NCBI GenBank assembly: GCA_012839115.1
Contig: DUNX01000077.1
Location: forward strand, 1 to 41,064
Source of the DNA: Bacillota bacterium
Lineage (GTDB): Bacteria; Bacillota; UBA4882; UBA10575
Reading direction: 5' to 3'
Length of the DNA stretch: 41,064 bases
Part shown: in pieces, positions 18,009 through 36,012 of the stretch
How the letters are laid out: every line of letters starts with the position of its first letter
Numbering within the stretch: the first letter of the stretch is position 1
Position numbers and translations under genes: made by a program
Notes under the pieces: model-generated
Told to the model about the DNA's origin: nothing
The model's input: the letters and a program-made list of their open reading frames with translations, nothing else
Database searches by the model: none

Positions 18009-18770
18009 ATGAGTAGGGTTTACGCCATCACCAACCAAAAAGGAGGCGTTGGCAAGACAACCACCGCCGTAAACTTGGGGACTTGTCTGGCACAAATAGG
18101 GAAGAATGTTTTGGTTGTTGACAGCGATCCACAAGGGAATGCCACCAGCGGGATGGGGCTGAAAAAGAGCGAAATCAAGAGATGTCTTTATGATGTTTTA
18201 ATCAGCGAGATCCCCATTTGCGAGGTTATCCTTTCCACACAGGTACAAAGGCTATGGGCGGTTCCGTCCACAATTAAGCTGGCTGGTGCGGAAGCCGAAT
18301 TGGTGGGGATGATGTCCCGTGACCAACGGCTGCGCCGGGCTCTTGAACCCATCCGCGAAGACTATGATTATGTCTTGATCGATTGCCCCCCTTCGCTGGG
18401 GAACTTAACACTGAATGCCTTGGCCGCCGCTGACGGGGTCATGGTTCCGATCCAATGCGAATACTACGCCTTGGAGGGTGTGGGGCAGCTGATGAGAACC
18501 ATTCAACTGGTACAGAAATATTCCAACCCTTCGCTAACCATCGAAGGCGTAATTCTGACCATGTACGACAACAGGACCAACCTTTCGCAACAAGTGGCCG
18601 AAGAGATCCGGAGGTTTTTCCCGGAGAAGACCTACAAATCGGTTATTCCCCGGAATATTAGGCTCAGTGAAGCGCCCAGTTACGGACTGCCGATAACCAT
18701 ATATGACGAAAGATCTAAAGGAGCTGAATCTTATATGAGTTTGGCCAAGGAAGTGGTGGGCAATGAGTAA
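18009..18770 (+). CDS. parA: Chromosome-partitioning ATPase ParA (Soj)
   Basis: ParA/Soj is a Walker-type ATPase that acts with ParB in origin segregation and, in Bacillus, controls DnaA. The 253-residue protein starts MSRVYAITNQKGGVGKTTTA; the deviant Walker A is residues 11-17 with the signature Lys (K11) and K16. Further motifs are VVDSDPQGNAT (A') and YVLIDCPPSLGNLTLNAL (Walker B region). I chose ATG 18009 because GGGAGG lies about 12 bases upstream and the N-terminus fits the family; an upstream in-frame ATG at 17919 would add 30 residues with no family match and would read through the leader stem-loop. It overlaps parB by 8 bases. Confidence 0.96.
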   Translation: MSRVYAITNQKGGVGKTTTAVNLGTCLAQIGKNVLVVDSDPQGNATSGMGLKKSEIKRCLYDVLISEIPICEVILSTQVQRLWAVPSTIKLAGAEAELVGMMSRDQRLRRALEPIREDYDYVLIDCPPSLGNLTLNALAAADGVMVPIQCEYYALEGVGQLMRTIQLVQKYSNPSLTIEGVILTMYDNRTNLSQQVAEEIRRFFPEKTYKSVIPRNIRLSEAPSYGLPITIYDERSKGAESYMSLAKEVVGNE

Positions 18771-19653
18771 ACCTAGAGGCCTAGGAAGAGGACTGGGCGC
18801 TTTTTTTCCGGAGATGGAAGACGATCTCCTGCAAAACCCTACGGAGGTCCCAATAGCAGAGATTGTTCCCAACCCGTATCAGCCCAGGAGTGAGTTCCCC
18901 CCGGAAAGCCTGGAGGAATTGGCGGAATCCATAAGAACCCATGGAGTTCTCCAGCCGTTACTGGTAAGAAAAGTTGACGGCAAACACCAACTGATCGCCG
19001 GCGAACGGCGGTTGCGGGCGGCAAAAATGGCCGGCCTGTTTACAGTTCCGGTGATTCTTAAAGAGATGGATGACCGGACGACAATGGAGATTGCCCTGGT
19101 TGAAAACTTGCAGCGCGAGGACCTTAATCCCCTGGAAGAGGCTGAGGCCTATAAGAAACTGATTGATGAGTTTCAACTCACACAAGAAGAGATCGCCAAA
19201 ACAGTTGGAAAGAGCCGGTCAGCGATTACTAACACTCTCCGCCTGCTGAACCTCACAGAAGAGGTCCGTGCCCGGCTTGCCGAGAAAAAAATCACATCCG
19301 GACACGCCCGGGCTATTTTGGGGCTCGAATCACCCCAGGCTCAGATTACAGCCTGCGAAGAGATTCTCAAGAAAGACCTTTCCGTCCGGGAAACCGAAGA
19401 TCTTGTGCGGCAATGGGCTGACAACAATGTTTCACGTGAAACATTGTCCGGGCCAAAAAAGCTTGCGGCAAAAGAGCCGGGGCCAGACCCACAACTACAA
19501 GCAGTAATTGAGGAGTTAACCCGAAGCTTAGGGACCAAGGTGAACATCAAGAGTAAGGGCGGTAAAAAAGGCGGACGGATTGAGATCGAGTACTATTCCG
19601 CAGAAGAACTGGAAAGAATCGTCGAAATCCTCGCTGCCCCCAGGCACTTTTAA
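18763..19653 (+). CDS. parB: Chromosome-partitioning protein ParB (Spo0J)
   Basis: ParB binds parS, hydrolyses CTP and spreads as a sliding clamp to load SMC and stimulate ParA. The 296-residue product has the ParA-interacting N-terminal basic peptide (KPRGLGRGLGAFF), the CTP-binding motifs GERR at 80-83 and ENLQRED at 114-120, an HTH at about 139-160 (LTQEEIAKTVGKSRSAITNT), and a C-terminal dimerisation domain. A perfect parS lies inside the gene at codons for NVSRET, the same trick as B. subtilis spo0J. It is coupled to parA by overlap. Confidence 0.97.
   Translation: MSKPRGLGRGLGAFFPEMEDDLLQNPTEVPIAEIVPNPYQPRSEFPPESLEELAESIRTHGVLQPLLVRKVDGKHQLIAGERRLRAAKMAGLFTVPVILKEMDDRTTMEIALVENLQREDLNPLEEAEAYKKLIDEFQLTQEEIAKTVGKSRSAITNTLRLLNLTEEVRARLAEKKITSGHARAILGLESPQAQITACEEILKKDLSVRETEDLVRQWADNNVSRETLSGPKKLAAKEPGPDPQLQAVIEELTRSLGTKVNIKSKGGKKGGRIEIEYYSAEELERIVEILAAPRHF
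19428..19443. promoter_or_regulatory. parS: parS site inside parB
   Basis: TGTTTCACGTGAAACA is a perfect 16-base palindrome matching the parS consensus. It sits within the parB coding sequence, about 8.3 kb from the rpmH-dnaA divergence point, and should nucleate ParB binding near the origin. Confidence 0.95.
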
Positions 19654-19728
19654 CCGGCGCCTGCTCCCGTTTGCGGAAACATTGTTCCGGGAGCCGGGCG
19701 ATTGAGCTTAAGAAACCTTCTGTGGCAC

Positions 19729-19744
19729 TGTTTCACGTGAAACA
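19729..19744. promoter_or_regulatory. parS: Second parS site, downstream of parB
   Basis: A second perfect TGTTTCACGTGAAACA lies 75 bases after the parB stop and 285 bases from the first. Flanking C and G extend the palindrome to 18 bases, and GGCA (19724-19727) pairs with TGCC further right (about 19754-19757), so the site sits in a larger imperfect inverted repeat. Confidence 0.95.
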
Positions 19745-19942
19745 GTAATCTTGTGCCGGGGGCGTGATCCAGCGAGAATTAGTCACCACCGCCAACTACA
19801 GTTAGAACCCTCGGCTGTTTCCTAGGGAGGGTACGCGTTCATCGGGCGGGAACAGTCGTTGCCACCGGGGATGCGGTTGGCGGCTTAAGGATCGGAGGGG
19901 TCCCACGCCGCCTATTCGTACTTTAGGCTAGAATGCCCCGGC

Positions 19943-19960
19943 ACAGAACAAGTGTTCTGT
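19943..19960. promoter_or_regulatory. 18-base inverted repeat resembling a LexA/DinR operator
   Basis: ACAGAACA-AG-TGTTCTGT contains GAAC-AAGT-GTTC, which fits the Gram-positive SOS-box core GAAC-N4-GTTC (19946-19957). No SOS gene starts directly after it; the next gene (DUF4446) begins 180 bases downstream. It could equally be a short RNA hairpin. Operator function is inference. Confidence 0.4.
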
Positions 19961-20139
19961 TTGTTGCTGCGTACCGGTTACACGCCGGAAGATGAAGGCG
20001 CCAGGCGGTGGAGGCCTTACAACGACCATTGCAAGGGGTATGATGAAACAAAGGGAGAAAATTTTAGGCAGTAATAAAGGATAATATGATGGCAAAAGAA
20101 TTATTTTAATTAAAAGGGCATAAAAAGGGGAGACTTATA

Positions 20140-20619
20140 ATGCTTCTGGGTGAAAACCTGTTTCTACTTCTGCTAATTATACAGATAATAGGGGTAATAA
20201 TCTTGCTGGTAATCGGCTGGCGCCTGCGCAACCTAATCTGGCAGTACCGGCGGTTGTTGACCGGAAAGGGAGAAATAAACCTGGAAGAAGTGCTAATGCG
20301 ATTGGGGGACAGAACGAAAAGACTAGAGGAGAGCCTCTCCCGGGTGGAAGAAGAGCTTGAAAAAAATCGTGAAGAGGCCTGCAGATATTTACAAAGGTGG
20401 TCGCTACTGAGGTATAAGGCTTTTGCCAATACCGGCGGGGAACAAAGTTTTTCCCTGGTTGTTCTGGATCGTAAAGGGGACGGTGTTGTATTGAGCAGCA
20501 TTTACGGGCGGGAAGAATCACGGGTTTATGCCAAGGCGATTAAAAACGGGAAATCCAGTTATCCCTTGTCCGAGGAGGAACAGCAGGTTTTAGCACGGGC
20601 TTTAAGTAACAAATCGTAA
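20140..20619 (+). CDS. DUF4446 family protein, membrane-anchored
   Basis: The 159-residue protein starts with one hydrophobic helix (residues 7-27, LFLLLLIIQIIGVIILLVIG), then a charged coiled-coil segment (about 45-85) and the DUF4446 core: LLRYKAFANTGGEQSFSLVV, LDRKGDGVVLSSIYGREESR, VYAKAIKNGKSSYPLSEEEQ. The family is common in Clostridia-type Bacillota next to parB, as here, and its function is unknown. Position after parAB suggests envelope or segregation work, but that is a guess. AAAAGGGGAG precedes the ATG. Confidence 0.88.
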   Translation: MLLGENLFLLLLIIQIIGVIILLVIGWRLRNLIWQYRRLLTGKGEINLEEVLMRLGDRTKRLEESLSRVEEELEKNREEACRYLQRWSLLRYKAFANTGGEQSFSLVVLDRKGDGVVLSSIYGREESRVYAKAIKNGKSSYPLSEEEQQVLARALSNKS

Positions 20620-20764
20620 AAAAATTACTAGCTAAGAAGAAGGATTTAAGTAAAATATGGAGAATATTTCATCTACGGATTTTTCCGCCCATTTTGTTGC
20701 GGTTCAGGTCAATACAAACAATGTTTACTCCCAAGCACTGGAGGGAGCGGTCTAAAAGGGGTGT

Positions 20765-21739
20765 ATGGAACCGATGCGGATATGGCAGAAAATAATTGCT
20801 TACATAAAGAAAAAGCGGGGTAAAGGCTATACCGTCATGGTTGTTCCCAATTTTCAAGGGACAACTAAGAGCCTGAGCATACCTTTTTTCTTAACAATAT
20901 TTTGTCTCTGTTTATTGGCGGCGGATGTTTATTTCTTATGCCGGTACCCAGGACGGCTGCTTAAGATTAGCCATTTGGAGCAGAAGATTGACCAATTGAG
21001 TGATATCATCGCCCGTCAGGAACGGGACCTCAAGCAAATCAACCCCTCAATCGAAAAAACCCATGAGATGGAGGAGCGGCTTAATAATACCAACAAGTTA
21101 ATTGCCGAGATCCGTGAGACCCTCAACTCCATCCTCCACAAGGCCGGGCAAAGCAGATCGGCTAACCGGGGTTATACCTACCGCCCGATCAGTCTCCCCT
21201 CGTACAACCTCTCCAGTGCTGATAACGACCTAACCCGACTGGAGATTCTCAATACCAACCTGGATTTTGTCGAAAAAGAGCTGGAAAAATCCGAAGAAAG
21301 ACTAGACAAGTTATCTGCGGATCTCCGGGCCTTTAATAAAGAACTGGATTACACCCCGACAATCTGGCCGGTGTACGGACGGATAACCTCGGGCTTTGGC
21401 TATCGTATCCATCCAATCTCCAGAAAACATGATTTTCACCGGGGGATTGACATAGCAGCGCGGAAAGGTACTCCTATTCGTGCTGCTGCGGGCGGGCGGA
21501 TTGTGCGCGCTAATTTTTACGGGGGGTACGGTTGGACGGTAATTATTGACCATGGATATGGTTACCGTACTCTTTATGCACACAATCGTAATTTAGTAGT
21601 CAGACAAGGCCAGTGGGTAAGTAAGGGACAAGTTGTGGCGTATTCGGGAGATAGTGGGAATACTACGGGCCCCCATCTTCATTACGAAGTCCATGTCAAC
21701 GGCAAGCCGGTAAATCCCACTACTTATTTATGGCAATAA
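20765..21739 (+). CDS. Membrane-anchored M23 (LytM-type) metallopeptidase
   Basis: The 324-residue protein has a basic cytoplasmic start, one transmembrane helix (about 39-59), two coiled-coil segments (about 66-125 and 158-195) and a C-terminal peptidase M23 domain. The zinc-ligand motifs are H225-x3-D229 (HRGID) and HLH at 304-306, so it should be an active peptidoglycan endopeptidase outside the membrane. The YAHN/GQWV.KGQ.VAYSGDSGNTTGPHLHYEV blocks are family features. AGGGGTGT precedes the ATG. Bactofilin follows after 30 bases; M23-bactofilin pairs are known and act together in cell-shape control in other bacteria. Confidence 0.92.
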   Translation: MEPMRIWQKIIAYIKKKRGKGYTVMVVPNFQGTTKSLSIPFFLTIFCLCLLAADVYFLCRYPGRLLKISHLEQKIDQLSDIIARQERDLKQINPSIEKTHEMEERLNNTNKLIAEIRETLNSILHKAGQSRSANRGYTYRPISLPSYNLSSADNDLTRLEILNTNLDFVEKELEKSEERLDKLSADLRAFNKELDYTPTIWPVYGRITSGFGYRIHPISRKHDFHRGIDIAARKGTPIRAAAGGRIVRANFYGGYGWTVIIDHGYGYRTLYAHNRNLVVRQGQWVSKGQVVAYSGDSGNTTGPHLHYEVHVNGKPVNPTTYLWQ

Positions 21740-21769
21740 TACGCAGAGAGAGAAGAAGGAGGAGTTTCA

Positions 21770-22195
21770 GTGAAACGGGGGAGCACTACGGAAATGGGGA
21801 ATAAAAAAATCGACACCCTGATTGGGCAAGAATCTTCCCTCACCGGGAGGTTGGAATCATCAGGTACAATCCGGGTGGATGGGAAATTTGAAGGCGATAT
21901 TATTACCAAGAGCGATCTGGTGGTAGGGGAAAACGGGCAGGTGAGTGGGAAGGTTAAAGCCAGGGATATTACGGTGGCCGGGCTAATCAAGGGCGAATTG
22001 GAGGCCAGTGGCAAATTGGAACTGGTACCCACCGCCGTAGTAGAAGGAGAAGCAAAAATGTCTCTGCTCGTGGTGGAGGAAGGAGCGGTCTTTCAAGGGA
22101 ATTGCCAGCAGATTCCGAAAGACCAAAAAGACCGGGGTAAAGCCTTACGGATTGATACCCCGAAGATACAGGCGTCACCGGTACCGGAGAAATGA
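21770..22195 (+). CDS. Bactofilin
   Basis: Bactofilins are polymer-forming cytoskeletal proteins built as a right-handed beta-helix. The 141-residue product has a short N-terminal tail, then repeating six-residue strands (TLIGQESSLTGRLESSGTIR, VDGKFEGDI, LVVGENGQVSGKVKARDITV, GLIKGELEASGKLELVPTAV) to about residue 115, and a Lys/Pro-rich tail. GGAGGAG lies 8 bases before the GTG start. It is coupled to the M23 peptidase gene and followed by a strong terminator, making a two- or three-gene envelope unit with DUF4446. Confidence 0.93.
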   Translation: MKRGSTTEMGNKKIDTLIGQESSLTGRLESSGTIRVDGKFEGDIITKSDLVVGENGQVSGKVKARDITVAGLIKGELEASGKLELVPTAVVEGEAKMSLLVVEEGAVFQGNCQQIPKDQKDRGKALRIDTPKIQASPVPEK

Positions 22196-22282
22196 GTGGC
22201 AGGCAATCGGGGCCGGAAATGCCCGTCCGGAGGGATTTTTCGTACTCAGTACGACGTACGTATACGTATGCATTTGGCGTAT

Positions 22283-22313
22283 AAAGAAAGCCCCTTAGAA
22301 AGGGGCTTTCTTT
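22283..22313. terminator. Strong bidirectional terminator between bactofilin and glnA
   Basis: AAAGAAAGCCCCTT, loop AGA, AAGGGGCTTTCTTT form a perfect 14-base-pair stem with A-rich 5' and T-rich 3' flanks, so it can end transcription from both convergent sides (bactofilin on plus, glnA on minus). Confidence 0.93.
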
Positions 22314-22340
22314 GCATCTGTCCGGATCATTTCTTCCGGA

Positions 22341-23663
22341 CTAAAACACTCCTAAATACCGCCGGATTTCCCAGTCATGGACTTGAGTGCGGTAGAGATC
22401 CCATTCAATGGTTTTGGCGTGTAAAAAGTGTTGATAAATGTGTTCGCCCAAAATTTTCCGGATGAGCGGGTCACCTTCCATTTGCGCCAAGGCTTCTCGC
22501 AGGTTGGCAGGGAGATTTTTAATCCCTTCCGCTTCCCGCTCCGTAGCGGACATCTGGTAGATATTTTTCTGGGCGGAAGGCGGCGGCTGAATTTTGTTTT
22601 TAATCCCGTCCAGGCCGGCAGCGATCATGACTGCAAAAGCCAGATATGGGTTGCAGCTCGGATCCGGGCTGCGTATTTCCACCCGGGTTCCTTCATCCCG
22701 GGATGACGGGACCCGCACCAAGGCACTGCGGTTCGTTGCTGACCAGGAGATATAAACCGGCGCTTCATACCCGGGAACAAGGCGTTTATAGGAGTTGACC
22801 AGCGGGTTGGTGACCGCGGTGAACGCGCCAACATGGGCCAGAAGCCCTCCGATAAAATGGAGCGCGGTTTCACTCAATTGGTACGGCCTCGCCGGGTCAA
22901 AAAAGGCGTTCTTCCCGTCTTTGTAAAGGGAAATATGGGTGTGCATTCCTGAACCATTCACCCCGTAAATGGGTTTCGGCATAAATGTGGCGTGCAGATC
23001 GTGTTTTTGCGCAATAATCCGGGTGACAAATTTCAATGTTGAGACGTGATCCGCCGCCAGGAGCGGGTCGGTATACTTAAAGCCGATCTCGTGCTGGCCG
23101 GGAGCCACCTCATGGTGGGAGGCCTCGACTTCGAACCCCATTTCATTGAGGGCGAGCACTATATCCCGCCGGGCGTCTTCACCGCGGTCAACGGGTGAAA
23201 GATCAAAATACCCGCCCTGGTCGTGAGTGATTGTAGTTGGAATACCTTTTTCGTCAAAGCGGAAGAGGAAGAACTCACATTCCGGACCGATATTGATGGA
23301 ATAACCCATGGTTTTTGCTTCTTCTACCACCCGGCGCAGGATATAACGGGGATCACCGATAAAAGGCTCCCCCTCATGGGTGTAGACATCACAGATCAAA
23401 CGGGCGACCTGAGTGCCCCCGGGTTTCCAGGGAAACAGGGTAAATGATTCAGGAACTGGCCGCAGGTTCATATCCGATTCTTCAATACGGGTAAACCCTT
23501 CAATGGAAGAACCGTCAAACATAATCTTGTTGTCCAGGGCTTTTTCCAGCTGTTGGAGGGGGATAGCAACATTCTTTACCACCCCCAGGATATCTGTGAA
23601 TTGCAGGCGGATGAATTTTACCTGTAACTCCCGGGCCTTTTGCAACACCTCTTTTTTGGTCAA
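22341..23663 (-). CDS. glnA: Glutamine synthetase, type I
   Basis: GlnA makes glutamine from glutamate, ammonia and ATP. Family blocks are [14 protein letters not shown], the [10 protein letters not shown] substrate segment, the active-site GPECEFFLF and [41 protein letters not shown] and the [18 protein letters not shown] region. I chose TTG at 23663 (440 residues, close to the B. subtilis length) since GAGGTG lies 5 bases upstream; an ATG at 23708 would add 15 residues, has no ribosome site and falls in a leader hairpin. The lack of a 25-residue insert and the length fit the Gram-positive I-alpha type. It has its own promoter and runs against the fork. Confidence 0.95.
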
Positions 23664-35800: not shown

Positions 35801-35828
35801 AAACAAGGGGCCAATGGGCCTCTTGTTT
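35801..35828 (+). terminator. por operon terminator
   Basis: AAACAAGGGGCC, loop AATG, GGCCTCTTGTTT form a 12-base-pair stem with one G-U pair, A-rich before and T-containing after. It lies just past porB. Confidence 0.85.
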
Positions 35829-35857
35829 GTACATAAGAGAGAAACCCTCACCAATAT

Positions 35858-35930
35858 CTTGGTAATTATAATGTTTTTATATTATATATACCACACTTGG
35901 TAATTATAATACCTTTATATTATATATACT
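35858..35930. repeat. Two near-identical 35-base AT-rich direct repeats
   Basis: CTTGGTAATTATAAT starts both units (35858-35892 and 35896-35930), and TTTATATTATATATAC ends both; they differ only at three central bases (GTT versus ACC) and the last base. The period is 38 bases. Each could supply a weak TTGGTA/TATATT-type promoter or a protein-binding site for the downstream gene. Confidence 0.85.
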
Positions 35931-36012
35931 TAAATATAGGGGATAGTTTTTGGCGCCGGAAACAAAATATCCGGTTGGACAGAGATTGCAAGAAGCCGAG
36001 AGGAGGCTGGAG

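Follow-up and report, generated by a model that had tools for sequence, protein, structure and literature searches.

The window (the whole stretch of DNA that was analysed, 41,064 nucleotides) carries a parB gene followed in the same direction by a gene for a DUF4446 protein, with 486 bp between the parB stop (19653) and the DUF4446 start (20140; Table 1). The coding sequence of parB itself contains a second perfect parS at 19428-19443, 301 bp ahead of parS 2, and both sites are present in L051 and L052 too. In two congeners (L052:2691-2715 and L050:320-346) a T run lies directly 3′ of parS 2, so this centromere site might also act as a terminator. After parB, positions 20140-22195 encode, in one direction, the DUF4446 protein, an M23 peptidase with a coiled coil and a bactofilin, three genes that possibly form a cell-envelope operon. 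The first-pass annotation of the gap had described a compound stem, a hairpin, a perfect repeat and about 60 open codons without a start, and had read them as either an undescribed structured RNA or what is left of a gene formerly located between parB and DUF4446. All of these elements are in place: GGCGGC (19879-19884) pairs with GCCGCC (19907-19912) around an inner GGATC (19889-19893)/GGTCC (19899-19903) stem, the hairpin arms ACCCTC and GAGGGT occupy 19807-19812 and 19827-19832, and the startless open frame and the repeat are listed in Table 1.

Table 1. Features between and around parB and the DUF4446 gene in the window.
Feature	Position	Strand	Remarks
parB, upstream neighbour	18763..19653	+	ORF; Pfam HTH_ParB, ParB_N, ParB_C
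parS 2, TGTTTCACGTGAAACA	19729..19744		2 parS sites against 0.01 expected
Spacer, former place of larB-larC (judged by synteny)	19654..20072	+	mostly unrecognisable; interior evolves like unconstrained DNA
Startless open frame, encloses the larC relic	19889..20074	+	61 codons, then stop
larC relic, FRLECPGTEQVFCLLLRTGY	19922..19981	+	matches LarC residues 134-153 of G006
Perfect dyad ACAGAACA-AG-TGTTCTGT	19943..19960		relic codons T-E-Q-V-F-C; LexA-type operator core
Candidate DUF4446 promoter, AAAGGATAA-N10-AAAGAAT	20076..20101	+	within the well-conserved last 69-84 bp
DUF4446 protein, downstream neighbour	20140..20619	+	Pfam PF14584, E 3.6e-43

The gap differs in length within the window's genus (486, 332, 333 and 850 bp). 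Conservation of the stretch in relatives, a point the first-pass annotation had raised, is not seen: the gap interior is unalignable within the genus, and for the window against G002, 87 of 500 shuffles align equally well. This is what would be expected of unconstrained DNA, because even the fourfold-degenerate sites of parB, 116 in number, are only 57% identical between the window and G002. Conservation in the genus is found in the final 69-84 bp ahead of DUF4446, where identity to the window is 91% over 69 bp in G001 and 87% over 84 bp in G002. In 9 of 10 genomes of g2 and g3, other genera of the family, AAAGGATGT or AAAGGATGA lies 90-100 bp ahead of the DUF4446 match, with a GAAT 14 bases further on; the motif of G014 differs, and the corresponding distance in the window is 62 bp. 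Most g2 and g3 genomes (L115-L127) carry AAAGGATGT-N11-CAAGAAT in a strongly conserved DUF4446 leader. The corresponding motif of the window resembles sigma-H promoters and may be a sigma-H-like promoter of DUF4446. A promoter scan of 19400-20300 returned three pairs against 0.6 expected, at 20016-20044 (+), 20109-20081 (-) and 20212-20185 (-); the first of these, a sigma-70-like pair, also precedes DUF4446. A literature search on DUF4446 found nothing.

The parB-DUF4446 regions of 24 relatives, one of them (G008) cut by a contig end, reveal what can occupy the gap. Eight of the 24 carry intact larB and larC exactly between parB and DUF4446, namely G006 and G007 of the same family and G018, G019, G020, G021, G022 and G025 of the class, and the LarB and LarC matches at all eight loci exceed the cut-off. 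At the G006 locus, where larB-larC is about 2 kb long, the NCBIfam matches are NF033503 (295 bits) for larB and TIGR00299 (224 bits) and LarC2 (138 bits) for larC. G024 has larB alone at the locus. According to one account, LarB, LarE and LarC make the nickel-pincer nucleotide cofactor (PMC7583248). A literature search for parB together with larB and larC returned nothing relevant by title.

In the window's genus, neither gene was detected above cut-off in the three genomes searched. larC was found in none of these three, in 4 of 13 genomes in the rest of the family and in 14 of 31 overall; LarB exceeded the cut-off in 0 of 3, 4 of 13 and 13 of 31, respectively. The four carriers in the family hold the genes at the locus (G006, G007) or elsewhere in the genome (G008, G010). 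No larC match appeared anywhere in G000, G001 or G002, although a missed copy is possible at an assembly completeness of 96.9%. The LarA N-domain (PF09861) was above its cut-off in 25 of the 31 genomes, and each of the three genus genomes gave only a partial match of about 48-51 bits.

Fragments of the genes persist in several of the gaps. The clearest are those in G009, where a gap of 959 bp contains pieces of larB and then of larC, interrupted by frame changes and stops (tblastn E 4e-7 and 7e-13; Smith-Waterman scores 86 and 172, 0 of 200 shuffles each; profile HMM 16 and 33 bits, 0 of 100). In the G001 gap, 12 of 17 residues are identical to LarC 277-293 (score 66, 0 of 200 shuffles), and C-terminal LarC similarity follows in order behind them (profile HMM 3.5 bits, 0 of 100). 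The window relic scores 52 against LarC 134-153 of G006, and the 200 shuffles average 32.1 and reach 45 at most; G002 matches LarC 130-147 with a score of 50 (0 of 200), and L050 matches more weakly (score 44, 2 of 200). In tblastn, none of 400 shuffles attains the score of the window or that of G002, and the L050 match is missed (356 of 400). When the 12-base core was held fixed and the flanks were shuffled, the LarC match was equalled in 0 of 300 trials in each of the window, G002, L050 and G009. The main support for the relic is that these same four sequences match the same place in LarC.

The relic of the window is nonetheless short (20 residues), and the best one in G001 is another part of LarC. 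Its tblastn E-values are 0.03 and 0.18, and the LarC profile HMM does not detect it, the best score being reached by 47 of 100 shuffles for the window and 28 of 100 for G002. Chained profile hits were equalled by 3 of 100 shuffles for the window and 43 of 100 for G002, and chained tblastn hits by 35 and 20 of 400, respectively. Traces of larB in the window are weak (Smith-Waterman 5 of 200 shuffles; tblastn 10 of 400; profile HMM best hit 13 of 100, chained 1 of 100). The startless open frame, considered as a protein, has no family above the cut-off in Pfam, PHROGs or NCBIfam, and a single Pfam match has E 0.24. An intact protein in the gap was rejected, since no family exceeded the cut-off for the three frames tried in the window or the three in L051. 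The minus strand of the G001 gap has an open frame of 268 codons (L051:2093-2896), which likewise lacks a family match and is probably a chance frame. A phage or plasmid origin was set aside after blastn gave no match in either collection. Apart from the locus itself, the genome holds just 15-26-base matches to the stretch, the best of which (E 0.006) is the parS palindrome matching itself.

With the synteny, the absence of the lar genes and the relic matches in hand, we read the stretch as a gene-loss scar in which larB-larC has decayed and one piece of larC is still readable, and we put the probability of this reading at roughly 80%. The first-pass suggestion of gene remains is supported by the 8 intact loci and by the larC fragments that exceed their shuffles. 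We infer the direction of change, loss and not gain, from the synteny and from one protein tree with moderate supports. In this tree of ParB and DUF4446, g3 clusters with g6 (87/82) and g5 (85/82), both of them intact genera, and g1 groups with g4 at just 83/70. Because g3 groups with intact g6 and g5, larB-larC was probably lost from the locus more than once in the family.

According to this gene-loss reading, ancestors would have carried larB and larC between parB and DUF4446, and both genes would have decayed in the window's genus, shrinking to an untranslated 486-bp spacer that keeps parS 2 at its left and the conserved DUF4446 leader at its right. The rest of the spacer, too, presumably descends from larB-larC. 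A larC piece of about residues 134-153 would survive at 19922-19981, and its codons would create the ACAGAACA/TGTTCTGT repeat: 19943-19960 reads ACA GAA CAA GTG TTC TGT (T-E-Q-V-F-C), and intact G006 larC reads ATT GAA GAG ATA TTC TGT. The other stems of the stretch lie in DNA with no detectable conservation and would be chance pairings in GC-rich unconstrained DNA. The stretch thus resembles larC of nickel-pincer cofactor biosynthesis (TIGR00299/NF052512) in its syntenic place and in 20 residues of LarC 134-153 in one frame. By contrast with a functional gene, it has no start and no complete frame, and nearly all of larB-larC is gone or unrecognisable.

The dyad within the relic raises the question of reuse. 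The operator consensus of LexA/DinR is of the CGAAC-N4-GTTCG type, and boxes of this type precede lexA in the genus; in other genomes of the family they precede lexA and recA. The dyad of the window shares with this operator the core GAACA-NN-TGTTC and perfect symmetry, but differs from it in its outer A/T in place of C/G, in the lack of a recognised overlapping promoter and in its codon origin. It is possible, if somewhat unlikely, that the surviving dyad has been reused as an operator for the DNA-damage repressor LexA, such that the parB-DUF4446 spacer responds to damage.

Evidence for such reuse comes from g2 and g3, whose 10 genomes all lack intact lar genes in the gap. There, CRAACN4GTTYG occurs in the gap of nine genomes, and the tenth, G009, has it with one mismatch; if an outer-base change is allowed, the LexA-type dyad is found in 13 of the 14 g1-g3 genomes (with one mismatch in G009). 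An unbiased dyad scan recovered CGAAC-N4-GTTCG in 8 of the 10 gaps, and no unrelated dyad in more than 3. With the last 140 bp of each gap trimmed, which removes the site of G012, the pattern remains in 8 of 10, and 2000 single-base shuffles never gave more than 1. The dyad's flanks are unalignable in these gaps, save for a 15-bp match between G010 and G014 at the dyad itself; the alignable part is the stretch just before DUF4446, plus a 31-bp match between G008 and G011 away from the dyad. The LarC flank test, applied to nine of the ten genomes (G009 excluded), was not significant in eight and gave 4 of 300 in G003. These patterns suggest that the dyad is probably kept for some role in g2 and g3, for which LexA binding is the best candidate. 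The box is absent from the gaps of G001, G005, G006 and G007, and among nine class genomes none has a mismatch-free gap box, with single-mismatch boxes in G020, G024 and G027.

Within the window's genus, the case for a LexA operator is weaker. In its favour, boxes of the CAAACATATGTTTG and CGAACAATTGTTTG types occur in the lexA promoters of the genus, AGAACA[AG]GTGTTCT is kept in 3 of 4 of the genus, and the dyad's 31-bp block is 87% identical between the window and G002, against 57% at fourfold sites (binomial 3e-4 against 57%, uncorrected for the choice of block). The same genome also has an outer-A box, AGAACATGTGTTCG, next to a canonical one ahead of an open frame. At that place (L142:760-801, G000:C141), CGAACAAATGTTTG and AGAACATGTGTTCG, both LexA-type, flank a TATAAT just before the frame, which is probably a damage-induced gene. 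Upstream of lexA (G000:C75:42173-42214, L073) lie three boxes, conserved in all three genus genomes compared. Against an operator at the dyad, AGAACAAGTGTTCT of the window fails CRAACN4GTTYG at both outer bases, which are A/T and not C/G, and the site is lost in G001. The nearest sigma-70-like pair lies 56 bp downstream (20016-20044, +, 9 of 12), and the scan of 19400-20300 found no promoter overlapping the dyad, whose distance to DUF4446 is not fixed. Genome-wide, moreover, the pattern is about as frequent as its reversed control (9 and 9 in G000; 8-15 versus 8-14 across six genomes), and GAACANNTGTTC is also produced by ordinary codons E-Q-M-F elsewhere in the genome. A related candidate, GAACAGATGTTC 1.8 kb before recA, was rejected as an SOS box because it lies in a reading frame as codons E-Q-M-F, and the 400 bp tested at recA of the window's genus held no box scoring 9 or 10 of 10. 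A literature search for LexA SOS boxes of the CGAAC type in Clostridium found nothing. On sequence grounds, then, a LexA operator made from a larC relic is possible. The fuller scenario, in which larB-larC was lost repeatedly and independently and a short run of larC codons was then retained and refined into a LexA operator in the spacer that separates parB from the DUF4446-peptidase-bactofilin genes, strikes us as distinctly doubtful.

The same dyad could instead be the intrinsic terminator of parAB, which we regard as improbable. The hairpin at 19943-19960 shares with such terminators a stem-loop, here with a 7-bp stem, and a few T residues after it (TTTGTT), and in 2 of the 10 g2 and g3 genomes (G003 and G014) the gap dyad forms the centre of a more extended perfect stem that resembles a terminator and has A and T runs, a point that also counts against LexA. 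The stem of the window, however, is AT-rich with just three G-C pairs, and its T run is short and broken. One terminator-like site in 19400-20300 against 1.1 expected is at chance level, and among the congeners the G002 site was not scored as a terminator and G001 has no terminator-like site.

The RNA half of the first-pass proposal fares worst. An Rfam search of the 601-bp region gave no match even at E 10, and the gaps of two congeners likewise gave nothing; the two matches obtained fell short of the gathering score and lay beyond the gap. Folding of the whole stretch yields z -1.96 on the plus strand (3 of 100 shuffles as good) and -1.93 on the minus strand (7 of 100), and the 200-nt piece 19746-19945 yields -2.38 on the plus strand (2 of 200). 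In the same 41 kb, z falls below -1.9 in 18 of 205 windows, and the structure exceeds chance only weakly. The strongest folding of these background windows is at 22201-22400 (z -5.06), which holds a palindromic GTACGACGTACGTATACGTATGC stretch and a terminator-like hairpin after bactofilin, and the second strongest is at 35801-36000 (z -4.44). The corresponding piece of G002 folds strongly (z -3.85, 0 of 200) yet into another shape, its 5′ arm pairing elsewhere, and four plus-strand pieces of G001 are unremarkable (z +0.63, +0.46, +1.22 and -0.98). The gap interior offers no alignment in which covariation could be counted, whereas 6S RNA, our control, has 97% mean column identity over three genomes of the genus. 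The stretch itself is not 6S RNA, which in this genome sits at G000:C69:41163; 6S matches number two each in 8 of the 10 other family genomes (G003-G012) and one each in the three of the window's genus (G000-G002). A conserved structured RNA is thus not supported, and a lineage-specific one, closed by a UGUGCCGGGG/CCCCGGCACA helix that is part of the minimum-energy fold and ended by the ACAGAAC hairpin, is highly improbable. Of the first-pass alternatives, the gene remains are supported and the undescribed RNA is not.

The gene-loss scar with its faint larC relic is largely ordinary in kind, apart from the question of the dyad. It removes a false lead to a new RNA, which gene loss explains, and it shows the decay in stages: the genes are intact in G006 and G007, plainly a pseudogene in G009 and reduced to faint traces in the window. 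It also cautions that ordinary codons can produce a palindrome, even one resembling a LexA site. Were the operator scenario true, a regulatory site would have arisen from a dead metabolic gene, and the cell-envelope operon or antisense transcription of parB would be tied to DNA damage. If the dyad works as an operator in the other genera, the locus would offer a traceable path from coding fossil to regulatory site.
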